Shown in pieces: positions 2,967 to 40,783 of a stretch of 64,000 nt of DNA. The position numbers were made by a program, and so were the translations under genes. Location of the stretch: NCBI RefSeq assembly GCF_037038585.1, contig NC_092560.1:85173549-85237548 (forward strand), given 5' to 3'. Below the pieces are notes generated by a model. The model did not search any database and had not been told where the DNA came from. It worked only from the letters and a program-made list of their open reading frames with translations. Every line of letters begins with the position of its first letter. The first letter of the stretch is position 1. The stretch is from Patagioenas fasciata (lineage: Eukaryota > Chordata > Aves > Columbiformes > Columbidae).

Positions 2967-4607
2967 GGTCACAATGGCCCCCGTCTGCTCGGTGGGGGTG
3001 GCGCTGCCCCCCACAACAAGTCCTTACCGAACCCTGGCGCTGTCCCCTCGCTGCTGGGGTCACAGCCTGGTCGCAGACACTGACACTTCGGGGGACAGCC
3101 AGGGGACCGGGCACAGTCACCCCCTTCCCCAGACAACCCCACGGGCACTTTAAATTGGTCACCGTTAGTGACTCTTTGCTGGCACAGGGTTGTGAAGGGC
3201 GCAGCTCCTGCGGGAGCGGAGCCCCCAGCGCCCCCCAAGCCGGAGCCGCACACCCCGCCGCAGGACGCAGAGCTCGCTCTGGAGCCGCACACCCCGCCGC
3301 AGGACGCAGAGCTCGCTCTGGAGCCGCACAGCCCGCTGCAGGACACAGAGCTTGCTCCAGCGCCACTGCCATCTCCTCCCCTGTGGAGGACGAGCTCCGG
3401 CTACTCCCATCCATCTCATCCTTTCAAGTCATCTTCCTCCTGCAATTTCCCCTCACCCCGAAAAGAGTGAAAAATCGATCGGTTTCTGTCCAATTTCAGA
3501 GCGGGAGGGGGAAGGAGCGGGCGAGAGGCAGGCGATGCCATTGCTGCTCTCAGCACGTGCTTCCCCGTGTCCCCCGCCAGAGCCTGCGCTGGGCAGGAGC
3601 ATCGATCCCCGGCCTCCAGCGCCCGCCAGAGCCACAGCACACAGCTCCGGCCCCTTCGGACCCAAACCCGCCCGTCCTGCGCTGGGGACGGGACAGGGCT
3701 CGCTGTCCCCACGGCCACGCAGCGTCACGTCCCCGAGGCAAACATCTGCGCCGCAGCGTGGCTGCTCAGACGCTGAATTTGTGCTGTAATGTATCACTAT
3801 TGCACCCTGTGCCAGATCTGACAACAAGTATGATTTTAGGTGTCGTGCGGCAGGCATTTAATTATTGGAGACATGGGCTTAATGGTGTTTGTGTCACAGG
3901 AGCGAACGGTACAGATGTATCCTGGCTCCAGGAGACTGAAATTCTTGCTCCAAAAGTAACTCTCCTGATAACAGGTAATTTTACAAAAACGGTTAAATGA
4001 ATCAGATTCAAACAAGGTCTGTTTTTTCCACCTGGTCAATAGATCCGAAAGAAACAATGCCAAATATCATGAGTTATTGTGCGGCACTGATGACTGTCAG
4101 GACAATGGGAATAGCAAAGACAAATACACACCTTTTCCTTGGTTATTACTTTAAGCCTTTTATTATCATTATTATGGGTGATTAAAAATCCCATTAATCA
4201 GATGCTAAACAGATTAAACTCTATGAATTAATTTTCTGGAAATAACTAAGACAAACATTCTGTGCAGAGCTCATTTAATGAAATAGAAGCTGTTTATCTG
4301 CAAAATTAGGGCTTGCGCATATCTGAGCTTCAGCTGGAAAAATCCGCTGCCGTGTGGGCACGGCGGGCGCAGGCTGGAGACGCCACCGATTTTTTACCCA
4401 TTCTAAGTAAAAGAAAGATCTTGCTCTAAGTAATTTATGATTCATTACGCAAAGAGCTCATTAGCCAGGACTAGAAAATAAAATTACAGTCATTTAAGAA
4501 ATAATTCCTTGATGTAGTGTTTAAGACGGGAGGCTGCAGGATGGAGGCAGCATCCTGGGGAGCAGTGGCTGTGCTGGCGGTGGCTGCATCGGGAGAGGGA
4601 CGGGACC
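2967..4607. other. Intergenic, GC-rich then AT-rich non-coding DNA
   Basis: 2967-3780 is GC-rich and includes a 3-copy 39-bp repeat. From about 3780 to 4500 the composition changes to unique AT-rich sequence (for example around 3840-3990 and 4140-4330) without repeats or coding signal, which looks like conserved non-coding DNA upstream of a neural gene. No gene is supported. Confidence 0.45.
3243..3359 (+). repeat. Tandem repeat, 39-bp unit, 3 copies
   Basis: Copies begin at 3243, 3282 and 3321, each starting GAGCCGCACA. The third copy is the most diverged. A period divisible by three keeps several frames open, which explains the local ORFs. Confidence 0.9.
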
Positions 4608-6935
4608 CTCTGGGCACACGGAACCTGCCGTGGTTTGGGCACCCTCTGGGCACATGGAACCTGCCGTGGTTTGGGCACCCTCTGGGCACACGGAACCTGC
4701 TGTGGTTTGGGCACCCTCTGGCACACAGAACCTGCCGTGGTTTGGGCACCCTCTGGGCACACAGCACCTGCCGTGGTTTGGGCACCCTCTGGGCACATGG
4801 AACCTGCTGTGGTTTGGGCACCCTCTGGGCACACGGAACCTGCTGTGGTTTGGGCACCCTCTGGGCACACAGCACCTGCCGTGGTTTGGGCACCCTCTGG
4901 GCACACAGCACCTGCCGTGGTTTGGGCACCCTCTGGGCACACAGAACCTGCCGTGGTTTGGGCACCCTCTGGGCACACGGAACCTGCCGTGGTTTGGGCA
5001 CCCTCTGGGCACACAGCACCTGCCGTGGTTTGGGCACCCTCTGGGCACATGGAACCTGCCGTGGTTTGGGCACCCTCTGGGCACACAGCACCTGCCGTGG
5101 TTTGGGCACCCTCTGGGCACACGGAACCTGCTGTGGTTTGGGCACCCTCTGGGCACACAGAACCTGCCGTGGTTTGGGCACCCTCTGGGCACACGGAACC
5201 TGCCGTGGTTTGGGCACCCTCTGGCACACAGCACCTGCCGTGGTTTGGGCACCCTCTGGGCACACAGCACCTGCCGTGGTTTGGGCACCCTCTGGGCACA
5301 TGGAACCTGCTGTGGTTTGGGCACCCTCTGGGCACACAGAACCTGCCGTGGTTTGGGCACCCTCTGGGCACACGGAACCTGCCGTGGTTTGGGCACCCTC
5401 TGGGCACACGGAACCTGCCGTGGTTTGGGCACCCTCTGGGCACACAGCACCTGCCGTGGTTTGGGGACCCTCTGGGCACATGGAACCTGCCATGGTTTGG
5501 GCACCCTCTGGGCACACGGAACCTGCTGTGGTTTGGGCACCCTCTGGGCACACAGCACCTGCCGTGGTTTGGGCACCCTCTGGGCACACAGCACCTGCTG
5601 TGGTTTGGGCACCCTCTGGGCACACAGCACCTGCCGTGGTTTGGGCACCCTCTGGGCACACAGCACCTGCCGTGGTTTGGGCACCCTCTGGGCACACAGC
5701 ACCTGCCGTGGTTTGGGCACCCTCTGGGCACACAGCACCTGCTGTGGTTTGGGCACCCTCTGGGCACACAGCACCTGCCGTGGTTTGGGCACCCTCTGGG
5801 CACACAGCACCTGCCGTGGTTTGGGCACCCTCTGGGCACACAGAACCTGCTGTGGTTTGGGGACCCTCTGGGCACATGGAACCTGCCGTGGTTTGGGCAC
5901 CCTCTGGGCACATGGAACCTGCCATGGTTTGGGCACCCTCTGGGCACACGGAACCTGCTGTGGTTTGGGCACCCTCTGGGCACACAGCACCTGCCGTGGT
6001 TTGGGCACCCTCTGGCACACAGAACCTGCCGTGGTTTGGGCACCCTCTGGGCACACAGCACCTGCCGTGGTTTGGGCACCCTCTGGGCACACAGCACCTG
6101 CCGTGGTTTGGGCACCCTCTGGGCACACAGCACCTGCCGTGGTTTGGGCACCCTCTGGGCACACAGAACCTGCTGTGGTTTGGGGACCCTCTGGGCACAT
6201 GGAACCTGCCGTGGTTTGGGCACCCTCTGGGCACACAGCACCTGCTGTGGTTTGGGCACCCTCTGGGCACACAGAACCTGCTGTGGTTTGGGCACCCTCT
6301 GGGCACACAGAACCTGCCGTGGTTTGGGCACCCTCTGGGCACACAGAACCTGCTGTGGTTTGGGGACCCTCTGGGCACACGGAACCTGCCGTGGTTTGGG
6401 CACCCTCTGGGCACATGGAACCTGCCGTGGTTTGGGCACCCTCTGGGCTCATGGAACCTGCTGTGGTTTGGGCACCCTCTGGGCACACAGCACCTGCTGT
6501 GGTTTGGGCACCCTCTGGCACACAGCACCTGCTGTGGTTTGGGCACCCTCTGGCACACAGCACCTGCCGTGGTTTGGGGACCCTCTGGGCACATGGAACC
6601 TGCCGTGGTTTGGGCACCCTCTGGGCACACAGAACCTGCTGTGGTTTGGGGACCCTCTGGGCACACGGAACCTGCCGTGGTTTGGGCACCCTCTGGGCAC
6701 ATGGAACCTGCTGTGGTTTGGGCACCCTCTGGGCTCATGGAACCTGCTGTGGTTTGGGCACCCTCTGAGCTCATGGAACCTGCTGTGGTTTGGGCACCCT
6801 CTGGGCACACAGCACCTGCCGTGGTTTGGGCACCCTCTGGGCACATGGAACCTGCCGTGGTTTGGGCACCCTCTGGCACACAGCACCTGCCGTGGTTTGG
6901 GCACCCTCTGGCACACAGCACCTGCCGTGGTTTGG
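4608..6935 (+). repeat. Minisatellite, 36-bp unit, about 64 copies
   Basis: A 2.3-kb array whose unit has a constant part (CTCTGGGCAC, then CCTG, then C/T GTGGTTTGGGCAC) and a variable 8-mer with four main states (ACGGAACC, ATGGAACC, ACAGCACC, ACAGAACC). A few units lack one G (35 bp), shifting the phase. Because 36 is a multiple of 3 and the unit lacks stops, all frames on both strands stay open for 600-820 codons. These are not genes: there is no start context or splice context, and the peptide is a 12-residue tandem with no unique part. Confidence 0.97.
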
Positions 6936-9647
6936 ACACAACAGTTCACATATAAAACCCACGCCAGGCACAGCGCAGCTCCAAAGTCCTCCGGTCTGTG
7001 TGCCCTGCAGGGACCACCAGTGCCAAACCCCTCAGCGTGTGCTTCATTTCCCCTTTGCACTTACCCGCGCTATAAAGCGACCGTAAAGAATTAGTTAGAA
7101 GTTGTGCGCAGCCAAAGCTAACATTTTTCTTGCAGCGGCACCTCTCCGTCTGGTTGTAGGCTGGCCTGTTACCCATGAACGGCAACACAAAGTGGGGATC
7201 AATGCGAGCAGCTGCCCGGGACCCACGGAATCACCTCTTGCCCCGTGGGAGACCAGGGCAGTGCCTGCGCTGCCACCGACCCCAAATCCCCAGCCCGACA
7301 GCCGCCCTGCGGAACACCCCGATGTCCCCAGCACCCACATCAGCAGCTCTGCCCAGAGGAACCCCCCCAGGCAAGTCGTGCTTCCCTTCAAACAGTTCCG
7401 TAATCAGGGTATTTCATTCTCATGAGTGACGGCTGGTGTGTTTTTATCACGGCTGTGGGTCGTGCCCACAGACCTGCTGCTGGGTCCAAGCACCCTTGAG
7501 CTGGCACTGCCCTGGGGACAAAGAACGATGGCCTTGGACGGGTACCCTAAAATAAGATGCCTTCTTCTGGTACGCCAGCAAACACATCTGGGGAGCTGCA
7601 GGCTGGGTTCAGCCTCAGAGGTTGAGATTTGCTAACAGGCAACGTTTTTGCCCAGGCTGAAGTGCGTATGGCAGCACAGTTTCACCGCATTAAACCGCTC
7701 CGCAGCCAGACTCAGCCCCTGAAGCCGCCGCCTCGACAGCACTGAGATTTGCAGTCAGTCTGAGGATTTTCGTGTTGGTTTACCCACATCTGCACCCCTG
7801 TGCCAGTCACACCCTCAACCTCTCCTCTCTGAGCAAGAAGTAAGCGGGATACAAGATTCCTGTGTAACCATTTTACCTGCTGCAAATTAAACACGAAGGT
7901 GGTTCTTATCAGTTTTGCCATTAATGACAGTGATACCAGAAATGAGCATTAATTGATTTTTCACTGATATCTTTCCCTCCCACGATTATGGAGCTGTCTT
8001 TGAGTGTAAAATACTGGAGCCACCGTGCTAAAAAAGTTTCTCCTCCTGAAACTGCCGGGCTGCTCACCGCTGTTATCCCCATGGCATGAGGAACAATCCC
8101 AGCCGCTAAGGCACTTCTCTGCCTCCTAAGTAATGCTTTTGTGCTAAAAAGAAAGCACCGAAAGAGCTTTTAAATCCAGTATCCAACCCTTAAAGCATCA
8201 TCTGAGACAAGCAGCTTTCTGTTTGCATTCATTTGTAGCCTGCTCTAGAAATTGCCTATTGAATTACTATCTCTTATGCCTGTTTAAATAAATAGGCATA
8301 TTTGTTATTGCTGTTGAAAGTTCCATGTTTGCCTTTTTAAGTCATTTGATTAGGAAGTCAAGAGAATATTTTAGCGGCAAAGAAGGCACTGACAATCAGC
8401 ACGAGTAGGAATAATCCAATTTTCTTTGCAAAGAAGGGCAAGGGTCCTCCTAGGAGGTCAAAGCTCCCTTAGCACAATTAGAACTTTAATTAACGAAATT
8501 GGCTGAGCTTATTTGTCGGTGCCCGGCAGAGCTGTGGGCGGGGGGCTGTCCCGGCCGCGGCAGAGCGTGCGGAGCCCCGACCCACCGCAGCCCTTCGCTC
8601 GGGAGATGGAGCTTTGGGGCTCTTTGTTCAGCGCCGGGAGCAAACCTGGCCTTGCGCAGCGGCTCTGTGACGGGCGCACGACCCGCGCTATCTCGTGCTG
8701 TTCAGACATGCTGTCTGCAATTAATATTGCATAGTGGCCTCCTGATTCCTAAATTATGTATTTCTCCTTCTCAGCATCATGTGTTTTTTACAGGGTTAAT
8801 TATTTTCCATCATTCTGCCTTTAGCAACAGTCGACTTAATTAAGGGGGCCAAGTTCCGCTCTCATTTCTGCCTGGCGGATCCTAATGAAATCAATGGAGC
8901 CGCGCGGTGTAAAGGGGAGAGGGACGGTGGCCATCTACGTACAAATAAAACGTTCCCTCTCTTGGTGATTAATGCATAAAATTAAACCAAGGCCTAATCT
9001 CCATCTTTAGACCATCACGGAGTAAATTAGTGCAAACCCCCCTTGGAGCGGCTTTGCCACGTGCGGTGCCACTCTGCGCGTTCCCCTACAGCACCAGGAC
9101 CGCCAAGGGGGAAGGACCAGGAGAGGGATGCTCTGGTGACCCCAGCCCTGTGACACCGCTGCTGAGGCCACCAGATAAACCCCCAGCACGGGGAGACTGA
9201 GGGACCCCCAGAGCCGAACCCCCTGGTGCCGGGAGGGGTTGTTTACCGGCTGCTGCCGTGCCCGGCCAGCCCCACGCTGCAGCTCCAAACCCACCTCATC
9301 CCCCGGGATTAATTTTTACACAACCATTCTGGAGTCTGTGATAATCACTCCATAAAAAAATGAAGAGATTGGGGATTTTTTTCAATGCAGAGGATTAGGT
9401 GTAAAGACAAGTAATCTGCAGGAAGCTCAGCTGTGTGCGCACCACTAATCGCTCCTGTATTCCGCCCGCTTTAGCTCGTCCATCGGGATTTTCCACAGCG
9501 GGGCTGTTTGTCCTTGGGGAGCTCAGGACACGCAGACGGTCAGACACGTCCCGAGGGCCACGGCCATGTGCCAGCCCACGGGGGCTTGCACGGGGACAGA
9601 GGACAGCAGCCGCAGCAGCAGCTGGGGAGAGCAGCAGCCCTTTGCTA
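6936..9647. other. Intergenic, AT-rich candidate regulatory DNA, no gene
   Basis: No supported gene. About 7640-8480 and 8690-9010 are AT-rich, low-repeat stretches with many TAAT and ATTA cores, of the kind seen in conserved non-coding elements near developmental and neural genes. 8520-8690 is a short GC-rich interruption. Regulatory function is inference only. Confidence 0.4.
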
Positions 9648-26827: not shown

Positions 26828-26964
26828 CGGGCCCGCCCCGAGCCGGGGCCCGCGCGGCCGCGCCGCCTGTCAGTGGCGCAGGCCCGGCCCCGCGGGCGCG
26901 GCCAGGCGGGGCGCCCTGGACAGCTCCGGCCGCCTGCAGACGGCGGCGGCGGCGGCGAGCGGAG

Positions 26965-26994
26965 GACATGGCGCGGGGCCGGCGCGGGCCCGGC
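26965..26994 (+). promoter_or_regulatory. Upstream ORF 1 in ONECUT2 leader
   Basis: ATG in strong context (GACATGG) opens a 9-codon ORF (MARGRRGPG, stop TGA). Relevant only if transcription starts upstream of 26965, which is likely but unproven. Confidence 0.45.
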
Positions 26995-27083
26995 TGAGCC
27001 GCCGCTGCCCGCTGCTGCCCGCTGCCCGCGGGGCCGGCGGAGCGGGCGGCCCGGGGCGCTGCCCCGGCGCGGCCGCCGCCCCC

Positions 27084-27095
27084 ATGAGTGACTGA
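27084..27095 (+). promoter_or_regulatory. Upstream ORF 2 in ONECUT2 leader (3 codons)
   Basis: ATG AGT GAC TGA, ending 53 nt before the main ATG. An overlapping third uORF (ATG 27118, stop TGA ending 27207, 29 codons, weak context) runs across the main start in another frame. Confidence 0.5.
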
Positions 27096-27148
27096 GGAGC
27101 CGCCGCGGCGGCCGTCGATGCCTCGCCGGGGAGCCGGGTGCCTGCGCC

Positions 27149-28208
27149 ATGAACCCCGAGATGGCGATGGAGCCGCTGGGCAGCCTGCACGGGGCGGCGG
27201 GCCATGAGCCGGAGCTGATGGGCAGCCCCAGCCCCCACCACGGCGGGCGCGGCGCCGGGCCGCTCCGGGTGCCCCCGCCGCACCAGGAGCTGGCCCCCGC
27301 CGCCGCCCGGCCGGCCATGGTGTCCAGCATGGCCTCGCTGCTGGACGGCGCCGCCGAGTACCGGCCCGAGCTCTCCATCCCGCTGCACCACGCCATGAGC
27401 ATGCCCTGCGAGTCCTCGCCGCCCGGCATGGGCATGAGCAGCACCTACACCACCCTGACGCCACTCCAGCCCCTGCCGCCCATCTCCACCGTCTCCGACA
27501 AGTTCCACCACCCGCACGCCCACCCGCACGCCCACCACCACCACCAGCGCCTCTCGGGCAACGTCAGCGGCAGCTTCGCCCTCATGCGGGACGAGCGCGG
27601 GCTGCCCGCCGTCAACAACCTCTACGGGCCCTACAAGGAGATGCCGGGCATGGGGCAGAGCCTCTCGCCGCTGGGCAACGGGCTGGGCCCCCTCCACAAC
27701 GCCCAGCAGGGCCTCCACGGCTACGGGCCGCCCGGCCACGACAAGATGCTGAGCCCCAACTTCGACGCCCACGCTGCCATGCTGGCCCGGGGGGAGCAGC
27801 ACCTGTCCCGGGGGCTGGGGACGCCCCCCGCCATGATGCCCCACCTGAACGGCATGCACCACCCCGCGCACCCGGGCCACCCGCCGCCCCACGGGCCCGC
27901 CCTGCCCGCCGGCCGGGAGCGGCCGCCCTCCTCCTCCTCCGGCTCGCAGGTGAGCAGCTCGGGGCAGCTGGAGGAGATCAACACCAAAGAAGTGGCACAA
28001 AGGATCACGGCGGAGCTGAAGCGCTACAGCATCCCGCAGGCCATCTTCGCCCAGCGGGTGCTGTGTCGCTCTCAGGGGACCCTCTCGGACTTGCTGCGCA
28101 ACCCTAAGCCTTGGAGTAAACTCAAATCTGGCCGGGAGACCTTCCGGAGGATGTGGAAGTGGCTGCAGGAGCCGGAGTTCCAGAGGATGTCGGCCCTGCG
28201 GCTGGCAG
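27149..28208 (+). CDS. ONECUT2: ONECUT2 exon 1 (coding part)
   Basis: 353 codons plus one base. Ends with the complete CUT domain (EINTKEVAQRITAELKRYSI through RMSALRLA). Donor GGCAG|GTAGGT is a good match. The frame stays open past the donor to 29326 only because of GC bias. Confidence 0.96.
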
Positions 28209-31200
28209 GTAGGTGCGGGCCGGCGCCCCGCGGGAGGCTGGCGGGGAGCGGAGCGCGACCCTCCGGGAGCCGAGCGCTGCCCCGGAGGTACCGGCCGCAA
28301 CCGGCCCGGCGCGGGGGCCTGCCCGCTCCGCCTCGGCCGCTCTCAGCTGCCGGGCGCGGGGACGAGGGGCCAAGGGCTCGGCGCCCGCCTGTCCCCCGCC
28401 TCCCCCAGCGCCGGCACCTGCGCAGCCCGGCCCGGAGCCGGCGGGACTCGGGGGGCTCCGGGCTGGCGGAGGAGCGCTCCCTGCCGCGGGTGCCGGCCTG
28501 GAGACCCCCGCGGCCGCTGCCGGGTGGTGGGGCCGGGGCAGCTGTCCCCGGCCGGATGCTGGAGGGCGCCCTGCGCCCCTCTCGCACCGCTCCGCGCCTC
28601 CCGCACCTCTGCGCGCTCTTAGCGAGCATCGCTCGCGCCTCTCCCAACGCCCCTGGCGCCCCGGGAGAGCCTGAGCGCTCCCGGACGGGGGGACCGTGTC
28701 CCCGGAGCTGGCGAGGCGGGCGGAGCGGCTCGGGGGGCGCGGAGCGGCTCGGGGGCGCGCAGCCCCGCGGATCGGCCGCATTGTCCCGCGGAGGGCGCGC
28801 GGGCGCCCCCTGGCGCGGTCGCGGGGCGCCGCAGCCCCCATTGTTCTGCGGGTTCGGGGCGGGGGGGGCAGCGACCCCCGGCAGCGCCCGCCCCGCATTG
28901 AGCGGGGGGAGACCCGGCGAAACCCCTTCCCGTGCCGGGCGGACGCGCACCGGCAGCCGCTCGGCCCTGCTGCGGCTGCCCGGGGGCAGAGCCCCCTGCT
29001 CGGCCCGGTCCCACGGCACCGCGGGGCTCGGGGCAGCGCCTGCTGCGGAACATACGCTGTCATGTGTCCTTCTTGCCCTTCGTGGAAACCGCTCTTCTGG
29101 GGGATATGGATCCGTGGTAAACGGGCGGGCTGTGTCACGGCCAGATACGCGTGGGCAGACGGACAGACCGCGGTGCGGTGTGCCCATGTCCGGCTTGGCT
29201 CTGCTGTGGCAGCGACATGTCCATGAGCGCAGTTTAGAAACCTGGGGATGCTGGTTCTGGCGAGTCCGTAGTTCTTTTATTTCGGTTGATTTTAGCCCGG
29301 GCGGGTTGATCACCGCCCGTTGCTGATTATCAGGGGCAGGTACCGGTGGGCTCTCCCGAAGGCCCACGCTGCTGGCATACCCGGAGAGGGGGACAGGGTG
29401 GCTCTAACAGCCTCTGCAAACTCCTCCCGTCCTTCCCAGCGCCTCCTGGCTGTCCAGTTCTTCTGTATTATCAACCAAATGAAGGTCCCGAGGTTTGTCT
29501 GCAACAGGAGCATCAGAGGAACGGAAAGGTTTTGGTTTTTTCTGTTTTGCTGGAGCACACGGTGGTGTCGCCTTCTCAAACAAACGTGTATCTAGAGGGA
29601 AATCGATGCAGATAATGTTTAGAAGATTAAAAGAGCATTAATGCTGGCAACAGGAGCATAAACGTGTGGACCCAGTTTTCATTGATCTGGAACCTGAGCC
29701 GGCTCATTTCCAGTAATGCTGCTGGTGCTTTTCCTTCCCAGCACCGGTCCTGAGTGAGGGGTTCCCCACGGAGCCCTGCATATAGGGCAGAAAGTCAGAA
29801 GTCACATCTACGCATCTGCTGGGTGACCGCTTCCTGGGTGTGTAAATGCGATTTCTGAATTTCTGCTGTACACATATATATGCATATATAATTCTAGATC
29901 TCCACTTTTCCAGTTCCCTCTGAATGCCTTTGCATCCAGGAGTAAAGTTCGGAGAGACTTCAGTGGCAAAGTGGGCATGGGTTTCCTGTGGAATGGGAGC
30001 TGGAGCGGGAAAGACCTTTGCAAATTACCATTCCCTTTGGGAAATCGATTTTTGTTATTATGATTACCACGTGTGAATATGCAGCCTCATTGCCTCCGTG
30101 CTTCCTGCCTCCTCTTTACTCACCTGCTTAAATCCCTCTGAGCAAGCAAAACAAACTGCAAGTATTTGAGGTTTCTGAAAACACTAGCCTTTTGCCCCAT
30201 GCTCCTCTGTTTTGTTTGGGGGTTGTTTGTTTGTTTGTTTGGGTTTTTAATCAAACGGGATGAAAATGGGCTGTCCTTTTAGGGGAATCCCCCCCTCTCC
30301 CTGTGGGAGCTGTGCCAGCGGGGTGTGCTTATTGTTTCTTAATATTATAGAAGATATATAATTCTATTCTGTTTTCTGTGCTTATTATCTCTTCTTAGGG
30401 TTCTTTAAAAGCCCCCTAAGTGCTGGACGGTGCTCGGCCGTTTCTGTGCGGGCAGGGAGGGAGCTGCGGGCAGAGCTGCGGGCGGCTCCTGGTGTGAACG
30501 AGCAGTTCGGTGCGTGCTTTGGGGGTCCAGGGTAAAACGTCGGGTTTGTCTGGCGTCCGGGTGAAGCCTCGGCCGGCTGCGGCCCCGCTGGGCGGTCCCT
30601 GGGTGTGCGAGCCCCGCTGTCCGGGTGAGTCCCCGTCCGCCGGGCCGGTGCGGGCAGCGGGCAGGTCCAGCTGCGGCTCAGGCCGAGCTCGGAGCCCGCC
30701 CGGGGTTGCTGCAAAGCGCGGGACCTCGGGGCGTTATCAGCGCATCCCCGGCGTGTGAACACGGGAGAAGGCCGCTGAAGGAGCTCCGTGCCGTGTCGCC
30801 CCGCAGGCCAGCGGGCTCGGACGGGTCCGAGGTGCCGGAGCAGGCGGCGGGGCTCTGTGTGCGGCGGTGCCGCTGTCCCGACCAGGGCAGAGCCGAGCGC
30901 TCGCTGTCCTTATCCCGTGGAAGCCGCCGAACCGCCGCAGCCGCGGTGACAGTCGCGCCGCTGTCAGTGAGCGGGACAGGGGAACAGGGGACAGCGCACG
31001 GCCGGGCCAGCCCGTACCCTGCCGGTGCCTTCCCCGGGTTTTGGGCCGACCAGCAGAACGCTCCCACCGCTGTTGGGATTTCCCCGTTGCTGAATCGCGT
31101 TATTGATGACTAACCTTTTTTTTTTTGTACCGAAACACTTATCGATGATTCATTTGTGCGAAGCAGTCGCGCTCACCTCGCCGCGTTTCTGTCCCTTAGA

Positions 31201-34200
31201 TGGAAGCGGGTTTGGGGGTCGGCAGGACCGACCCCGCTGCTCCGTGCCCACGGTTGTGTCCCCGCCGAGCGGGGCCTGGCGGGAGGGGGGGCCTGGCCGA
31301 ACCCCCGTGCCGGAGCCGCGGGAACGGCCGGGAGCGGCGGCACCGTCAGCACCACGGACAGCGGCAGCGGGAGAGCGGGGAGGGCGGGGGGGCGGGCACA
31401 CGAGGACGGGGCCAGCAGGGGGCCAGCAGGGGGGCAGGCCCTGCTGCGGGCTGTCCCCAGCCGGGGGTCCATGGCAGAGGAGCGGGGGGTCCCTGTCCCA
31501 CTGCTGCACTGACCCGGCCGCAGCTGTGTGCAGCTGGACTGTTGTTGTCCGTCTGCCCTCTGCCTCTTTGTGCCGTTCCTAATGTTTCTGTCTCTACATT
31601 TTGAGACTGCTTTGTTGTCTGTAGCTACAGCTGAAAATTGAGGCTTAATAACATCTGTATCAAGTGCGTTATCTATATATAAAACTATTTCTTAGTGTTG
31701 AACTAAATATACAGGTACATTAAGATTCTTTGAAAGGTGCTTAGTGGGTTGAAATATTAGTACTCCCTTCAGATATAGATTAGTGGTTATGTTTGAACAA
31801 GCCATGCGGTAAATTGTGGTGCTGGGTGATAAATTATATTTCTTATGTACCAACTTTCTGAAATAATATCCTGCCCTATCTTTTTGTTCCACATTATTTC
31901 TGAAGATGTTTCTGCCCTGCAGAAATTTGAATACCAGTTTTGTTAAGCAACCAGTTTTTATCAGTTCCTTGATTGGTTGATAAAGATAAACCTGATCACA
32001 TTTGTCATTAAATGCATTTCTATCTTTTTTCTTTTCCCTTCTGCTGTTTTTGAGAAACAATTGGTCTATCAGCCTGTGTTGCTCATTCTGAGCTTTTCCA
32101 ATCTGTCTTTGATGTTTCTTGATTAGAGTTTTTCCAACATCCCTTTTCCTGGTATCTCTGGGCCATCACCACTTGAACTGGAATACCCAAACTCGCATCT
32201 TCCTCTGCATTTGAAAACTGACAGAATTTATTTGTGGTGAGGAATTCATAAAGGAGAGAACATTTTTGCCAAAGGATAGTTTTCCAGTGACTGATGCAGT
32301 TTCTCCCCTCTGTCTTTCTGGAGGCATTCTGGCTCAAACTTTGCACGGCTCTGTTCTGCGTGTGGCCCGGTTGCTCAGCTCGGCGCTCCTCCCCTGTCTT
32401 ACTCAGAGTCCTGTCCTAGACGTTCCTGCAGCCCAGCAGTCGCGGGTGGCTCTTTCATCCCTTCCAATTAGCGGTTCGTGGGAGGTGACGAGCGTCTCAC
32501 CGCTGCCCCACCAGGTGTGCTGGGCATGGAGCAGCCTCCCTGCGCTGCCGTCAGAGGGAACGGGCTCTGCAAGGTGGGAAAGCGGGGCTGAACAGGGCTC
32601 AGGCATCGCTGTCCGGCGCTGCCCCCGTGCAGGAAGCAGCGGTGATGGGGGCTCCTCAGGCTACCTAGGCAATCTCTACCAGGGCTTACAGGTACAAAAA
32701 AATCCTCAATGACTAGCCTTAATCTCCCTTTTTGTCTTTTAAATCCTTTGCTTCTCATCTTATCCCTGCTGGACACAGCAGAAAAAACGACTCCCTTTCT
32801 TCTGATAGCAATCTGTTTGTATTTAAGACTGCTATCTTGTCTCTGGTCTTCTCTAGAAAAAGCCCCGTCATACTTTGAGGATGAATATGCAGAGAAAGCA
32901 TTATGTCCAATGGGACAGGTAATACATCTCTTTTTTCCAAGGTAAAAGGTTTTGTATCCAGCTACATCAATCTTGCAGACTTTTGCATAGAAGGCTCTCT
33001 GATTTATGGAGGATTTTTGTACACAGAGATCATACAAAATAGACTAATCTCAAATGGGTTCGGTGATAAGATCAACAAGACAACTCACTGACGGCAGATA
33101 GAAATGCAATCAAAAAAGAAATGGGAGTGTTTTGGGGTTGTTTGGGGTTTTTGAGCTATAAAATCAAACTACTCCGTTGTGGAAAAAGAAAAGGGACTCA
33201 GACCACGGGTAAATGCTGCACAAAGGAATTATTAGACAAACGATAGAGGCTGGCAGTTTCCCAAAACGCAAATTGTCTCTGGGACCAAAATATCTCTAAG
33301 TAAGCAGGAAACGTATTTATGAGGAGTGGTGATTTTCCAGCAGATCTCATCTTGTCATAATGGGCATTTAGGACTGGGGGCCTGCGCCGAGGCATTAAGC
33401 TTTGGCAAGTAGCGCGCAGCCGAAGGAGACGGAGGAAGAGCACGAGGAAGTCTTCCTCGCAGAGCTGCCCACACACCTTCTTCTCCGTTTCCCGGCCGGG
33501 TGCGTGTGGTGCCCGCACCGGTGAGGACAGCGCGGGGACACGAGCGTCCTTCCTCCAGCTCCTGCTGCTCGGGACGGGCGTCAGAGCCTCGCACGCATGG
33601 GGTAGAAGCTCCCAAAGCTTCTCCCCTGCCTTTCTGGAACCTTTTGTGCCAATTTTCTCCTCAGTCATGCCCGGACCCTGCCAAGAGGCAGCGTTTCGTG
33701 TCCCCTGCCTGTGTGCCTCAGCAGAGGTGTCCGGCAGGGCACAGCCGCGCAGCCCTGGCGCTGGAGCCGGATAAGTCACCAGGGCTTTGCTCCCGTCCTC
33801 CCCTGTTCTTCAGAGTTCCACCCCATCAGCAACAGCCATTAACAGGAAATAATTGTTTCCTGCGTTCTCCCGAGAGTCAGAACTTCTGAAAACGCGCTGG
33901 CTCTGGGGGCGCACGGCAAGGACGCTGTGGGTCCGCGCTGTCCTGCAGCAGGACCTGTGGGACCCGCTCCCGGCTCTGGGTGTCAGCGTGGGGGTGTCAG
34001 TGCAACACAGCCGCGGGGGAGCCGCTGGGTGCCGTCAGCAGGAAACAAGGCGAGATATTTCACGTTCTAATCCTCTCTGACATCTCAGACTCCTGTTCAG
34101 TGCTCGCTCACCTACCCCAGCTTTAAATCCCCGTCCTCTCTGCCCTGTGTGCCCGGGGAGGTCCCGGCTGTGCCAGGGGACGTGCTGGCGCATCGCTTGC

Positions 34201-37200
34201 TGCTGCCGCAGGCAGAGCACACGGTGCGGGGGTCTGGCGCCAGCCGCGTGCTCTGACCAGCGGAACATAAATCCTGGTTACCCACAAGTGTTGTAATTCA
34301 GCTGGAAACTACCTGGAGATTCGAAAGGCAGAATCTTGAGAAGGAGAGGAGGCATCGATCTCCCAGGTGTTGGAAGTGCCGTGTGAAGGATGCGGCGTTT
34401 TGCTGGGGCTGGGCAGAGGTCTGGGTGCTCAGCTGCCACGGGGCTGTGCTGCTGGGGTGACACCGCTCGTCACAGCCGGGTGATGGAGTTTAAGCACTGC
34501 TGCTTCTACCGTTTCTGTCAGCCCGTGCTTCTGAAAGCAGCTGGCGCTCCAAACCAGCACCGGTGCGTTTGGGCACCGCGGCAAGGCTGGGAGGGACGGG
34601 GTCCCACGGGAGGGACGGACGGCTCGTACAACCCAGCTGTTGGAAGGAGAGCTGCTGGCCTCCTGATCAATGCCGGCACAGACATCTGTGGGAAATGGGG
34701 ACCGTTCCTTTGCAGCTGCAGAAAAGCGTGTTTGTGCAGAGGTGGATGGGGGTGTCAGGGCTGCCCTGCGGAGCTGCTCCGGCGCACGCTGAGCTCGCAG
34801 GGAAGCAGCCCCCTGCTCGCCGGCCCCCTGCTCGCCGGCCCCCTGCTCGCCGGCCCCCTGCTCACCAGCCCCGCGCTCCTTCTCGCCCTGGAGTGCAATA
34901 AATTGGCCCTTTCCTATCCATTATTTATTATTCTGTATTAATGATGGAAGTACATTCCAGTGGTACTCAGAGGCCGCTGTGGCGGTCCCATGCGGAGCTG
35001 GGTGTCGCAGCGCTGCCTGGGCGGCACAGCCCCTGCCCCATGGAATTTACAGCCCCGTTTCAGCCCCCCCAGCAGATTTATTAGAGGTTTGACACAAATG
35101 GCCTGAGGCATGCTACGTGCCAGGAAGAAATAGAAAAGAACTGAGTCCCCAGACCCATCCATCTTTTCTTCTCCAACAGCTGGAGGATGCAGGACCTAGA
35201 GAGAGGGAGGCATTCCCTCCGTGACAGCACTGAGAGAGAGAAAAATCGGGTTGAGTACCATGAAAACCCATCCTGCAGGATGCAGGAGGTTGCGCTTGTT
35301 TCTTGGAGCGCTGCAGGAACCCCTGTGTCTGCAGACAGGCATCGCGGTGCCGTGAGCGTCTTGCTGCTGCGGGAGGGCTGGTTTGGGGCAGGGACCTGCG
35401 CTGGTTTGGGGACAGGGACCTGGGCTGGTTGGGGGCAGGGACCTGTGCTGGTTTGGGGCAGGGACCTGCGCTGGTTTGGGACAGGGACCTGCGCTGGTTT
35501 GGGGCAGGGACCTGCGCTGGTTTGGGGCAGGGACCTGGGCTGGTTTGGGACAGGGACCTGCGCTGGTTTGGGGCAGGGACCTGGGCTGGTTTGGGACAGG
35601 GACCTGCACTGGTTGGGGTCAGGGACCTGGGCTGGTTTGGGACAGGGACCTGCGCTGGTTTGGGGCAGGGACCTGGGCTGGTTTGGGACAGGGACCTGTG
35701 CTGGTTTGGGGCAGGGACCTGGGCTGGTTTGGGGCAGGGACCTGGGCTGGTTTGGGACAGGGACCTGCGCTGGTTGGGGTCAGGGACCTGGGCTGGTTTG
35801 GGACAGGGACCTGCGCTGGTTGGGGTCAGGGACCTGGGCTGGTTTGGGGCAGGGACCTGCGCTGGTTGGGGACAGGGACCTGGGCTGGTTTGGGACAGGG
35901 ACCTGCGCTGGTTGGGGTCAGGGACCTGTGCTGGTTTGGGGCAGGGACCTGGGCTGGTTTGGGGCAGGGACCTGGGCTGGTTTGGGACAGGGACCTGCGC
36001 TGGTTGGGGACAGGGACCTGGGCTGGTTTGGGACAGGGACCTGCGCTGGTTGGGGTCAGGGACCTGGGCTGGTTTGGGGCAGGGACCTGGGCTGGTTTGG
36101 GACAGGGACCTGCGCTGGTTGGGGTCAGGGACCTGGGCTGGTTTGGGGCAGGGACCTGGGCTGGTTTGGGGCAGGGACCTGCGCTGGTACGATGGGAGAG
36201 CAGCGCTGACCCTGTGCTGCAGTTCTGGAGCACAGGCAGGCTCTGGCGCTGGGGCGGCCGCGGCCGTTCCGTGTGCCGGCAGAGGGACCGGCGGTGACGG
36301 CGCGGTGGCTGCGCACCCAACAATGTGGTTATTTGCATCTTCATTCAAATTGTTTCTTGTTACATAATGATTTTGTACACAGCGGAGTACTTAACCTAAT
36401 TTGTATTGATCTCGGTTGCTTTCATTTGTGCATACTTAATTCAGAGAGGTAATCAAATTGATTTTTAAGGCCTTGTTTTTAAGAGATTGTAGTAACACAG
36501 ATATACAAGGGGTTGCTTTAAGTGAATCACAGCGAAAGAAAAACATTTTAAACCTTTGGAAAACGTTTTGATGGTCATTTCATTGTGTTCAGTATTACTA
36601 GCATAATTAAATTTCCTTCACATTGAGTTCTCTCCGAAATCAAATTGACGAACGTTTTTTAGTTCCATCAGACAGATAACTGGGTTTAGTTGACTTTGTG
36701 CTACACCCGTATGAAACCACATACGAGAGATCAATATTCATGGCTTATCCTCACGAACGATGGAGGGAAATTATTCACCGCTGGATTAAGGGAATGTTTT
36801 CTCTGCTTGGCTCCTTCTTGAGTCCCGCTGTTTGTTTCATAGGTCCAAAGGCACTTTTACCACTAGGGTGAAAACACCACAAAGCCGGTGCCTATCTGTT
36901 AGTGAACCTGAGAAGCTGCAAGATGCTCCATCGCTGCTTTTTTCCCCCAGAAAAAAAAAAAGCAAATTAACTATTAGTAGAAATATTCAATTTAATGATA
37001 CTTGGCCACAAAAAAAACTTGGCTGGACTGCGAAGCGTGTGGAGTTGAAAGGAAGGCGGGTCGAGCGTGTCCTGGCGCCCGGCAGCACACGCTGAGCCCG
37101 GGGTGCAGAGTGGATGGAGCCTCTTCCCCATGGGCTGAGGCAGCACCGTGCCTGTTTCTGAGCTCTTTCTGTGTTGTTTCTGTGTGAAGTGTCTGTAGTC

Positions 37201-40200
37201 CAGAGTAGAAGGGAAGACTGCATTTTTTTCCACAGTCATGGCTGTCAATTCTTGCCAGTTGTCCATTGTATTCCATAGAAAGTGTTCAGCATTACTGGCA
37301 GTTAATAAATCAAATTGCTCTTAGGATCAAGATGGCCGCTTCCCTCCCTGCGCCGTTAAGGCGTTTCTGTTTCTGTAGGCAGGTTTCCTGGGTAAGAACT
37401 TGATTTTATTAGAGTGCTCGCTCCATTTTTCTCTTCTGATAAATGCATGTCAAGGAACAACATTTGCCTTGGTGGTGCCTTTTCAAGAGCAAACCTAACA
37501 GTTCAAGGAAAGTATTTACTGAATGCATCGAAAAGCACATACCTTTGCATTATTTATTATAAGATACCAATAACTGTAAAACGCAGCATATCTCTGCACA
37601 TAAATTAGTGATGTTAGGAAACGCTAGAACCTTCGCGGTGTCCCGGAACCGATTAGAAGCTGCAGCGCAGCCGCTCATCTCGTCCCCAGCACGGGTCCGG
37701 CCGCCTGCGTTCGCGGCGCGGTGTCGCGTCCCCAAATGCAGTCCCAGCCTGGCCCTGCTCCTGACCCGCGGGGAGAGGGGACCCAGGGAGCTCAGGATCA
37801 GCCACTCCACCAAGGCATTTCCCACAGAAACACCGGGCGATGCCATCGGGGCGGTGCCTTCAGGGGGATGCCTTCAGGGGGATGCCATCAGGGGGATGCC
37901 ATCAGGGGGATGCCTTCAGGGGGATGCCTTCAGGGGGATGCTGTGGGGGGGGATGCCGTCGGGGTGATGCCATCGGGGCGGTGCTGCCGGGGCGATGCCA
38001 CCGGGGCAATGCTGTCCGGACGATGCCATCGGGGCGATGCTGTCAGGGCGGTGCTGTCCAACCAATGCCGTTGGGGTGATGCTGTCAGGGTGATGCCATC
38101 AGGGTGATGCTGTACAGGCAATGTCGTTGGGGCAATGCCATCAGGGCAATGTCATCGGGGCGATGCTCTCTGGACGATGCCATCGGAGTGATGCTGTTGG
38201 AGCGGTGCTGTCGGGGTGATGCCGTGGGGGCGATGCTGTACAGGCAATGCCATTGGGGCGATGCCGTCGGGGTGGTGCTGTCCGGGCGATGCTGTCGGGG
38301 TGATGCCATCGGGGCGATGCTGTACAGGCGATGCTGTCCAGGCGATGCCGTTGGGGCGATGCCATCGGGGCGATGCTGTCCAGGCGATGCCGTTGGGGCG
38401 ATGCCGTTGGGGCGATGCCATCGGGGCGATGCTGTCCAGGCGATGCCGTTGGGGCGATGCTGTCCAGGCGATGCCATTGGGGCGATGCCGTTGGGGCGAT
38501 GCTGTCCAGGCGATGCTGTTGGGGCGATGCTGTCCAGGCGATGCCATTGGGGCGATGCCGTTGGGGCGATGCCGTTGGGGCGATGCCATTGGGGCGATGC
38601 TGTACAGGAGATGCCGTTGGGGCGATGCCATTGGGGCGATGCTGTACAGGAAATGCCGTTGGGGCGATGCCACCGGGGCGATGCTGTCCAGACGACGCCA
38701 TCGGGGCGATGCTGTCCCGGCACACACCCCTGGCACGCATGCGGTCCTGCCCACAGGTTAATTACACACATTTCCACACTCTGAGTTGTGCTTTCTTTCG
38801 CCAGGTTCTCATTTCCCATTCTAGACCTGCAGAATTATTTAATAGGGCTACTTAAAAACCTCTCCACTTATCAATTCGCTCTACTTATTTTGTCCCAGCA
38901 CATTACCCAACCATGTCAACATATGGATTTTTTTATCTTTCTGCCCTGTGTAGACAGCCTTATCAGGCTATTTTTAAATCTGGGTGTGCTACGGTAGCGG
39001 TATTGGTTTCAGCACTTGATGTTCTCTGTGTGCTAATAAATACAGCTCGGCTATTAACGCTGATTATTTTTAGGATCCATTAGCACGGCTTGGCGCAGCG
39101 ATGCCGGCACTGCTGCCCGCCCGGCCTGGGCTCTGACGGGCGGTTCTGGTCGTGTGTCCGTGTGTCCGTGTGTCCGAGCCCATCCCTCCCAAACCCTCGT
39201 GGCCCGTGGGCTGCAGCGAGCCTGGCCTAGCTGAGCCTGGCCTGGGAAAGCACAGGGTCAGGCTTTAGGGCGATAAGGAGGATCTGAGGAGGAAGGGGAG
39301 ATTTCATCTCAGATGAAAGACATTCACCTGTCTTAAAAGAGATTTGCAATCCAGGGTATTTTAGAGTATTTTTTCCTCTGGGAAGCAGCTGCAGAATTCC
39401 TGCTGTAAACCCAAATGCTGATAAATTCAAGTATATGGGGCCCAGGGTTCTCGATGGCTTGGTCGGCTTTGCACCTTGCCGTGCCATGGCCGGAGGGGCA
39501 TCAAAGAAAGGCTGTCTTTCCCCAAATAGTGCGGGCAGAAGGTTTATTCGAAGTGCATGAGCAGCAGTTTCCAGCTGTGTTTCCGCCGTGCTCGGCTGTC
39601 CTGTCCGTCACCCGGGGTGGAGTTCTGGTGAAAAAATAGCAATGTGGAGTTGTTGTGTGCTACAGCACAGGAGAACTTGCTGTGAAGAATTAATCTTTGT
39701 CTTAGCTACTGCAGGGGGAAAAAGGGATGTGCTTTGCTTCTGTCCTGGAGCCTGACATCAGATAAGCTGAATTTTTAATCCTAGCGCTGCTGTGACAGAC
39801 AAGCAAAGCATTGGAAAATCTCAGTGTCCTACAGTGCCCAGAAACAGCAGTGGATTTGTGGGCTGTGTGTGGGAGCGCTCCGAGTGCCTGGAGCTCGGTG
39901 CTGCTCCTCGGTGCTGGCTCCTTGCTCCTCGGTGCTGGCTCCTTGCTCCTCGGTGCTGGCTCCTTGGTGCTGCTCCTTGGTGTTTGCTCCTCGGTGTTTG
40001 CTCCCCGCTGTTTGCTCCTCGGTGCTGCTCCGCAGTGCTGGCTCCTTTGTGCTCAGTGCTGCTCCTCGGTGCTACTCCTTGGTGTTTGCTCCTCGGTGCT
40101 GCTCCCCAGTGCTGGCTCCTTGGTGCTCGGTGCTGCTCCTTCGTGCTGCTCCTTGGTGTTTGATCCCTGCTGTTTGCTCCTCGGTGCTGCTCCCCAGTGC

Positions 40201-40783
40201 TGACTCCTTGGTGCTCGGTGCTGCTCCTTGGTGTTGCTCCGCAGTGCTGTGGGGGGGTCACAGCTGGTGTCCAGTGGGCTCCGTGGGGTCTGCAGGGTCT
40301 GTGGGCAGCACACGCATCCTGACGCTCTCTTTCTCTCTCTCCCTTCCCTTCCCTTCCCTTCCCTTCCCTTCCCTTCCCTTCCCTTCCCTTCCCTTCCCTT
40401 CCCTTCCCTTCCCTTCCCTTCCCTTCCCTTCCCTTCCCTTCCCTTCCCTTCCCTTCCCTTCCCTTCCCTTCCCTTCCCTTCCCTTCCCTTCCCCAGCCTG
40501 CAAACGCAAAGAGCAAGAGCCGAACAAAGAGCGGAACAACTCGCAGAAGAAATCGCGCCTGGTTTTCACGGACCTCCAGCGCAGAACGCTTTTCGCCATC
40601 TTCAAGGAGAACAAGCGTCCCTCCAAAGAAATGCAGATCACCATCTCCCAGCAGCTGGGCCTGGAGCTCACCACCGTCAGCAACTTCTTCATGAACGCCC
40701 GCCGGCGCAGCCTGGAGAAGTGGCAGGACGACCTGAGCTCCGGGGGCTCCTCCTCGGCCCCCAGCACCTGCACCAAAGCCTGA
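27149..40783 (+). CDS. ONECUT2: ONECUT2, CUT-homeodomain transcription factor (complete, 2 exons)
   Basis: Joining 27149-28208 and 40497-40783 gives 448 codons plus stop (human about 504). ONECUT2 binds ATTGAT-type sites and acts in neuron, retina, liver, pancreas and endocrine development. Visible parts are conserved N-terminal blocks (YRPELSIPLHHAMSM, TYTTLTPLQPLPPISTVSDK), a short His-rich tract at 120-132, the STP-like region, one CUT domain at about 273-353, and a homeodomain at about 371-430 with the ONECUT-specific Phe and Met in NFFMNARRR, followed by the TCTKA tail. It is ONECUT2 rather than ONECUT1 because of QEPNKERNNSQKKS and EKWQDDLS. An in-frame stop at 27089-27091 excludes the longer N-terminus seen in human; MNPE aligns with the ONECUT1 start. 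The Gly, Ala and His expansions of mammals are missing or short. Confidence 0.97.
28801..28816 (-). promoter_or_regulatory. Candidate CTCF site
   Basis: The minus strand reads CGCCAGGGGGCGCCC, containing the CTCF core CCAGGGGGCGC without a mismatch. It lies 0.6 kb after exon 1 at the edge of the CpG island. Occupancy is inference. Confidence 0.5.
29590..30370. other. AT-rich, unique intronic sequence
   Basis: Low-repeat AT-rich sequence with several ATTGAT and TAAT cores, for example CATTGATCT near 29680. It looks like conserved intronic enhancer DNA. No transcript signal is evident. Confidence 0.35.
30410..31520. promoter_or_regulatory. CpG-rich block inside ONECUT2 intron
   Basis: High GC and frequent CpG over about 1.1 kb, bounded by AT-rich DNA on both sides. 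It has the composition of a second CpG island. I see no first exon with a convincing coding start, so an unannotated non-coding or alternative promoter is only a possibility. Confidence 0.4.
31600..33200. other. AT-rich intronic sequence, no gene
   Basis: Unique AT-rich DNA with one GC-rich interruption at about 32330-32680. Minus-strand ORFs such as 31692-32060 have no recognisable similarity or splice context. Confidence 0.4.
33201..34808. other. Intronic, no feature recognised
   Basis: Mixed unique sequence of moderate GC. I see nothing beyond chance ORFs. Confidence 0.4.
34809..34868 (+). repeat. Tandem repeat, 15-bp unit, 4 copies
   Basis: CCCCCTGCTCGCCGG repeated at 34809, 34824 and 34839; the fourth copy (34854) has two changes. 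Confidence 0.93.
35377..36188 (+). repeat. Minisatellite, 23-bp unit, about 35 copies, G-rich
   Basis: The unit is GCTGGTTTGGGGCAGGGACC plus TGC or TGG, with GGTTTGGGACAGG and GGTTGGGGTCAGG variants. The plus strand (the non-template strand of ONECUT2) has 3-4 G runs per unit, so G-quadruplexes are possible. The ACCTGC..TGGTTTGGG core resembles the 36-bp array at 4608-6935. Long ORFs on both strands are repeat artefacts. Confidence 0.96.
36300..36980. other. AT-rich candidate regulatory stretch in ONECUT2 intron
   Basis: Unique AT-rich sequence with an octamer ATTTGCAT near 36331 and several ATTGAT cores (near 36402, 36458 and, reversed, 36732), the ONECUT recognition core. Composition suggests a conserved enhancer; autoregulation is speculation. 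Confidence 0.4.
36981..37838. other. Intronic, no gene
   Basis: Ordinary unique sequence. A CAAGATGGCCGC (YY1-like) motif lies at 37328-37339. Nothing else is supported. Confidence 0.35.
37839..38720 (+). repeat. Minisatellite, 14-bp unit, about 63 copies
   Basis: Units of the form GATGC(C/T)(A/G)T(C/T)GGGGC alternate with GATGCTGTCCAGGC and, at the left end, GATGCCTTCAGGGG. Three units make 42 bp, so ORFs stay open and encode a 14-residue repeat. Not a gene. Confidence 0.96.
38755..39080. other. AT-rich candidate conserved non-coding stretch
   Basis: Unique AT-rich DNA between two GC-rich tracts in the ONECUT2 intron, with AATTATTTAAT and GCTATTAACGCTGATTA-type homeobox-like motifs. Function is inferred only from composition and location. 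Confidence 0.35.
39081..39892. other. Intronic, no gene
   Basis: Mixed unique sequence, nothing recognised. Confidence 0.35.
39893..40250 (+). repeat. Degenerate tandem repeat in ONECUT2 intron
   Basis: GCTCCTCGGTGCTG and TGGCTCCTTG blocks repeat with an irregular 12-21 bp period. It ends about 70 bp before the pyrimidine tract. Confidence 0.85.
40318..40324 (+). promoter_or_regulatory. ONECUT2: Candidate distant branch point for ONECUT2 exon 2
   Basis: CCTGACG contains the branch consensus CTGAC with the adenine at 40322. It is the last adenine before the 170-nt pure pyrimidine run, so it (or a site further upstream) would have to act about 175 nt from the exon unless a non-adenine branch is used. 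Confidence 0.45.
40341..40490 (+). repeat. (CCCTT)30 microsatellite forming the exon 2 polypyrimidine tract
   Basis: Thirty perfect pentamers in 150 bp, preceded by a short CT-rich run and followed directly by CCCCAG, the acceptor of ONECUT2 exon 2. The pure pyrimidine stretch is 40325-40494. It contains no AG, so no competing acceptor. Confidence 0.98.
40497..40783 (+). CDS. ONECUT2: ONECUT2 exon 2 (homeodomain, terminal coding)
   Basis: 287 nt. Completes the split alanine codon and encodes CKRKEQEPNKERNNSQKKSR, the homeodomain and the C-terminus TCTKA, then TGA. Identity to the mammalian exon is nearly complete. Confidence 0.98.

Follow-up and report, generated by a model that had tools for sequence, protein, structure and literature searches.

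In CFTR, the polypyrimidine tract at an acceptor is itself a microsatellite, (TG)m(T)n. The same is true of acceptors in ATM, MRE11, and HSP110, where the tracts are short (about 10-20 nt) and harm comes from shortening (PMC9957390). In canine merle, the lengthened poly(T) of an inverted SINE at the PMEL acceptor leads to use of a cryptic site, located between the poly(T) and the normal site, above about 55-66 bp (PMC7349775). Exons with distant branch points form another group of unusual acceptors. Human branch points normally lie at -20 to -40 (PMC9636908), and large AG-free zones of at least 150 nt were found for 165 of 67,334 human exons (PMC1431707). For rat alpha-tropomyosin exon 3, the branch point was mapped at -175, and an AG inserted there becomes the one used in step 2 of splicing; some other large zones are due to a repetitive element and have their real branch near the exon, in one case at -17 (PMC1431707).

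Here we describe an acceptor in a stretch of Patagioenas fasciata DNA that was analyzed over its whole length of 64,000 nt and is referred to as the window (Table 1). The exon after the acceptor AG encodes a homeodomain (Pfam Homeodomain, E 2.9e-11) and is matched best in the PDB by One cut domain family member 2 (8t0f, E 4.7e-43), and a Pfam CUT domain (E 9.4e-27, on 27092-28150) is found in the upstream exon. Joining the donor 28208|GTAGGT to 40497 yields 449 codons (448 residues and the stop) with the junction RLAACKRKEQE, which we take to be the vertebrate ONECUT junction, and this was the only one of four junctions compared to read RLAACKRK. The window also contains sialyltransferase exons at 17.2-18.7 kb and, at 61 kb, a minus-strand ferrochelatase exon, presumably reflecting the ST8SIA3-ONECUT2-FECH gene order of vertebrates. 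Its neighbors, the exon with the CUT domain, and the PDB result together identify the gene as ONECUT2. The initial annotation had named the ONECUT2 homeodomain exon and its acceptor, and this assignment is upheld by the neighbors, the two domains, and the 8t0f match. ONECUT3, which had been suspected from the high GC, is ruled out by the neighboring genes and the PDB match. The designation of 40495-40496 as the only acceptor of the homeodomain exon likewise rests on sequence.

Table 1. Positions within the window of the predicted ONECUT2 gene parts and of the elements at the end of intron 1
Feature	Positions	Strand	Basis
Coding part of ONECUT2 exon 1, counted from the ATG chosen (N-terminus uncertain), CUT domain; donor GTAGGT next	27149..28208	+	Pfam and junction
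ONECUT2 intron 1, 12,288 nt	28209..40496	+	predicted from the junction reading RLAACKRK
Exon 2 frame, open through the repeat, 332 aa; repeat reads (PFPSL)n	39785..40783	+	ORF list
Imperfect minisatellite with CTCGGTGCTGCTC-like units, 5' of the branch region; 356 nt on C47 too	39894..40249	+	TRF and copy comparison
First upstream AG, 5' border of the 186-nt AG exclusion zone	40307..40308	+	sequence scan
Candidate distant branch point CTGAC (YTNAY), A at 40322, -175 (-205 on C47)	40319..40323	+	use inferred
Mixed U/C tract CTCTCTTTCTCTCTCT, adjoins the branch candidate	40325..40340	+	read directly from sequence
(CCCTT)30 microsatellite, perfect; (CCCTT)36 on C47	40341..40490	+	TRF and copy comparison
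3' splice site AG (CCCCAG) of the homeodomain exon	40495..40496	+	sequence
ONECUT2 exon 2, coding part, homeodomain and stop codon	40497..40783	+	Pfam, PDB match

A search of the whole genome with the homeodomain exon (in frame from 40499) returned 3 places, and the exon had no match among plasmid sequences. An ONECUT3-like relative is present on C34 and is presumably ONECUT3 itself, a name that we base on its C-terminus. A CUT-domain exon at C16:25717914-25718144 is probably that of ONECUT1. The genome homeodomain search did not find a matching ONECUT1 homeodomain exon, which may reflect a gap, an N stretch, a limit of the search, or true absence.

A 170-nt pure-pyrimidine tract, made up mostly of 30 perfect CCCTT pentamers and ending in CCCCAG, had been reported before this acceptor; that description is exact by recount and by TRF, and the accompanying statement that the tract contains neither adenine nor AG is true for all of 40325-40494. 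The uninterrupted run (C 59.4%, T 40.6%) is bordered by GACG on its 5' side (40321-40324) and by the acceptor AG on its 3' side. TRF delimits a tandem array at 40340-40493 with a period of 5, 30.8 copies, and 100% matches, and the exact count on C48, the chromosome of the window, is (CCCTT)30 with 0 mismatches, followed by CCCC and the AG. Among the remaining purine-only or pyrimidine-only runs of the window, the longest measures 46 nt. A first-order Markov model of the window, simulated 200 times, gave pure runs of at most 25 nt (mean of maxima 17.8), which rules out a chance origin of the tract. The mixed U/C segment at the 5' end of the tract is probably the original polypyrimidine tract.

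The first AG upstream of the acceptor leaves an AG-free zone of 186 nt on C48 and of 216 nt in a second copy on C47, compared with the at least 100-150 nt used to define exons with distant branch points. The zone contains four adenosines, all at its far end (-187, -185, -181, and -175 from the exon), and only the one at -175, A40322 in CCTGAC (within TCCTGACG), fits YTNAY. Directly 3' of CCTGAC lies GCTCTCTTTCTCTCTCT, followed by the repeat. The initial annotation was correct in placing the nearest consensus adenosine at A40322 in CTGAC, which lies 175 nt before the first exon base, with no A in the tract. Its further claim that the repeat displaced the branch point needs refining, as the branch itself need not have moved. 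Subtracting the repeat units leaves CCTGAC-GCTCTCTTTCTCTCTCT-CCCCAG, with 25 nt between adenosine and exon in both copies (175-150 and 205-180). The simplest account would therefore have the repeat expanding within a polypyrimidine tract of the ordinary kind, from an ancestral spacing of 25 nt. The ONECUT3 acceptor in the same genome has an ordinary 37-nt AG-free zone with adenosines at -35, -34, -31, -30, -9, and -8.

This layout resembles that of rat alpha-tropomyosin exon 3, PTB exon 11, and GABBR1 exon 23, in which a large AG-free zone has a consensus branch site towards its 5' end with an adjoining pyrimidine tract, and no adenosine near the exon (PMC1431707). The position of -175 is itself shared with rat alpha-tropomyosin exon 3, in which it was mapped; in ONECUT2 it is a candidate. 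The absence of any adenosine near the exon sets ONECUT2 apart from the zones of the same study that are due to repetitive elements (PMC1431707). It also differs from the distant-branch-point exons described there in that a perfect pentanucleotide microsatellite, variable in length, forms its spacer and in that exon 2 encodes an essential domain and is not known to be alternative. With ATM, MRE11, and HSP110 (PMC9957390), ONECUT2 shares a polypyrimidine tract that is itself a microsatellite at the acceptor, but the tract is about 10 times longer and the issue is spacing rather than shortening. As in merle (PMC7349775), the distance from branch point to acceptor is lengthened by a pyrimidine microsatellite that varies in length, and the microsatellite between branch site and AG has unequal alleles, assuming that A40322 is the branch. 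The SINE insertion and the cryptic acceptor are found in merle only (PMC7349775); the ONECUT2 tract measures 170-200 nt, and its repeat directly abuts CCCCAG, with no other AG and so no cryptic acceptor between the repeat and the normal one.

The pentanucleotide found by TRF is also that of the RFC1 repeat in CANVAS, although here it occurs in another gene and at 30-36 units. Pathogenic RFC1 expansions have a length of hundreds of units. On the opposite DNA strand the ONECUT2 repeat reads (AAGGG)30. The CCCTT/AAGGG repeats of RFC1 have the same orientation relative to their host gene, but they lie deep in intron 2, with splicing unchanged in patient neurons, while those of ONECUT2 lie directly at the acceptor (PMC11373605). 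Pathogenic CANVAS motifs are reported to form quadruplex or triplex structures (PMC10563062); by analogy only, this supports the suggestion of the initial annotation that an unusual DNA structure may form at the ONECUT2 repeat.

What is new here is that the same genome contains a second copy of the region with 36 units. It lies on another chromosome end (C47) and is approximately 99% identical outside tandem arrays. The C47 copy has (CCCTT)36, a 200-nt tract, and its adenosine at -205, compared with 30 units, 170 nt, and -175 on C48, while the immediate flanks of the repeat are identical (1,040 and 300 nt, 0 mismatches). The repeat had been expected to be length-polymorphic, and it is so within one assembly. 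Since DM-domain genes are found on only one of these two chromosomes, we read C48 as Z, C47 as W, and the shared region as pseudoautosomal. When the whole window was compared with C47:622001-692000, 19 of 38 tandem arrays proved unequal in length. The bases that distinguish the copies include 27649 (C/T) and 28192 (G/A, at the 17th position counted back from the exon 1 donor) in exon 1, and 41648 (G/C) and 41984 (C/T), among others, 3' of the stop codon. Between 27144 and 28150 there is a single base difference.

Some other length differences between the copies lie well away from the acceptor. Upstream of the ONECUT2 ATG, at 26905-27143, there are two, of 6 and 10 nt, both shorter on C47. The C47 counterpart of the 36-bp array at 4605-6939 falls short of it by 1,438 nt. 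In the 36-bp minisatellite (window 4471-7094), several frames stay open for about 650-860 codons, on both strands; a unit length divisible by 3 explains this, and an ORF caller would be misled.

We also predicted the RNA fold of the intron end. Every one of 100 shuffled sequences folds more strongly than 40251-40560 (z +6.0). The ensemble leaves the repeat 86% unpaired on average and A40322 84% unpaired, and the bases just before A40322 are mostly paired, with the C, U, and G unpaired at 29%, 24%, and 18%. The single best fold contains a helix between the U/C tract and the purine-rich start of the exon, although such pairing amounts to about 2% in the ensemble, and a helix drawing the branch site near the AG was for this reason not relied on. 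Such a helix may still be real and would then bring the branch site near the acceptor.

We think it fairly probable that A40322 is at work as a distant branch point and that the CCCTT repeat is a neutral, growing spacer before the ONECUT2 acceptor. The microsatellite would have expanded between a normal branch point with its U-rich tract and the acceptor AG. U2 snRNP would most likely use A40322 (CCTGAC), with U2AF on the adjoining CUCUCUUUCUCUCUCU, and step 1 would proceed without the need of a nearby AG. Step 2 would then take the first AG downstream, 40495-40496, across mostly unpaired, AG-free pyrimidines, 170 nt on C48 or 200 nt on C47. Since CCCTT units can create neither an AG nor an A, the gene would be expected to tolerate growth of the repeat. 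The use of A40322, the AG-independence, the tolerance, and the growth from a 25-nt spacing are steps that we infer.

Several observations favor A40322. A consensus branch site with an adjoining pyrimidine tract at the 5' end of an AG-free zone is the described distant-branch-point layout, the repeat is mostly unpaired in the ensemble with a fold weaker than all shuffles, the zone in ONECUT3 is an ordinary one, and two repeat lengths occur between identical flanks in one assembly. Against it stand the predicted pairing of the bases before A40322 and the pairing of the U/C tract with the exon in the best fold. The verified distant-branch-point exons of PMC1431707 are all alternatively spliced, which is unexpected for an exon encoding an essential domain. 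Tolerance of 170-200 nt is also not a given, since the merle poly(T) shifts splicing above about 55-66 bp (PMC7349775), although merle has an intervening cryptic acceptor, as ONECUT2 does not.

The branch could instead form on a C or U inside the tract near the AG, for example on the fourth base of CUUCC at -20 to -40, and repeat number would then be irrelevant. A YTNCY occurs every 5 nt in the tract, and cytosine and thymine make up 4.25% and 2.57% of 546,559 catalogued human branch points (PMC9636908); the presence of CUUCC in every unit, together with the roughly 10% of catalogued branch points that are not adenosine, counts against A40322. We nevertheless consider a branch inside the tract unlikely, since adenosine represents 90.4% of the same catalogue (PMC9636908). 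The same AG-free zone moreover offers a consensus adenosine next to a pyrimidine tract. PTB, hnRNP K, and PCBP prefer CU- or C-rich RNA, and the CCCUU tract might be a platform for one of them, with exon 2 regulated or partly skipped or retained and its output set by repeat number. The few experimentally studied distant-branch-point exons are PTB-regulated and alternatively spliced (PMC1431707), STRs that influence splicing in human cortex show enrichment in the 100 bp upstream of their exons (PMC13174678, a preprint), and shortened microsatellites before acceptors accompany exon skipping in ATM, MRE11, and HSP110 (PMC9957390). Skipping of exon 2, however, removes the homeodomain, so strong regulation should be costly, and CCCTT expansions in RFC1 leave splicing normal, albeit deep in an intron and not at an acceptor (PMC11373605). 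A protein platform thus seems to us rather unlikely, and regulation of exon 2 that depends on repeat length is possible but unsupported. A more elaborate version is a splicing rheostat on the sex chromosomes, in which the number of CCCUU units sets both the branch-acceptor distance and the protein load. Homeodomain mRNA would then be released at one rate from the Z copy and at another from the W copy, and continual change of the repeat in a pseudoautosomal region of high recombination would make sexes or lineages differ; we regard this as quite improbable.

Simple repeats are error-prone, and an assembly or phasing error could account for the number of units or for its disparity between the copies. 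This is very improbable given that the repeat is perfect in each copy, with identical junctions and no mismatches over the adjoining 1,040 and 300 nt, and that the 6-unit difference is accompanied by 18 further length differences among the 38 arrays. Occasional use of acceptors upstream of the repeat would place a PFPSL-rich linker between the CUT domain and the homeodomain. The frame is indeed open from 39785 to the stop at 40783, AGs at 40108, 40243, 40273, and 40294, among others, keep this frame, and the 36-unit copy, being 30 nt longer, is in frame too. These four AGs, however, have only 9 to 15 pyrimidines in the preceding 20 nt, compared with 20 of 20 at the main site, and we give such use hardly any credence. 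The distant branch point at A40322 with a neutral spacer remains our preferred reading.

We also asked how common a CCCTT array at an acceptor is in this genome. The pattern (CCCTT)9 has 43,291 overlapping matches (14,585 + 28,706), and a backward-pattern control finds as many, since it reads the same arrays. The exact pattern (CCCTT)5CCCCAG occurs at 8 places, compared with 3 for the reversed-pattern control. A coding exon opens at the CCCCAG in 2 of the 8, both of them the ONECUT2 copies, and none was recognized at the other 6. A looser pattern, (CCCTT)4 N0-10 CAG, gave 144 matches (97 + 47) against 105 (47 + 58) for the control, so that arrays followed by CAG are in mild excess at most. Among the matches listed, 100 rows correspond to 76 separate places, and 40 of the 76, chosen for acceptor-like junctions, were examined over 270 nt downstream each; no coding exon was recognized at the CAG, and Pfam found 0 families in ten open frames from these 40 places. 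Exons were called by eye and with Pfam, by which those without a known domain may be missed. Outside the 40 are 5 places already among the six of the exact pattern, 31 other places, and 44 further matches, which must include ONECUT2. By this limited genome test ONECUT2 is at least a rare case. The repeat itself is less special than first implied, since the motif is common in the genome and since one in two of the 38 arrays is unequal in length between the copies. Among the papers listed in a literature search, none mentioned the CCCTT repeat of ONECUT2.

The motif comes close to an acceptor in a second case, one of the six exact-pattern places, where a (CCCTT)51 array (C3:3488379-3488409 onward) forms a 264-nt pyrimidine tract whose terminal CCCCAG lies about 60 nt upstream of the acceptor CTCTCCAG. 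The exon after this acceptor reads like a REL-type NF-kappaB exon. Arrays with the same junction also occur in groups of three or four at C2:54244852-54255635, C3:125084429-125103818, and C20:14555255-14659460, spaced by approximately 3.5-3.6 kb on C2, by 52 kb on C20, and unevenly on C3. In these groups the CCCTT arrays are inside larger repeated units.

On its sequence layout, the ONECUT2 acceptor is plausibly a distant-branch-point exon made by a microsatellite, and as such a variant of the known ones. It also serves as a warning: a microsatellite motif that is common can expand within an acceptor, since it supplies neither an A nor an AG. The maximal distance between branch point and acceptor, and its limits, are usually probed with constructs, and the two ONECUT2 copies provide a natural two-allele test. 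At the acceptor they differ only by six units (-175 versus -205), with matching flanks of 1,040 and 300 bases. Because marker bases separate the copies, one female RNA sample could show whether spacing matters for an essential exon.
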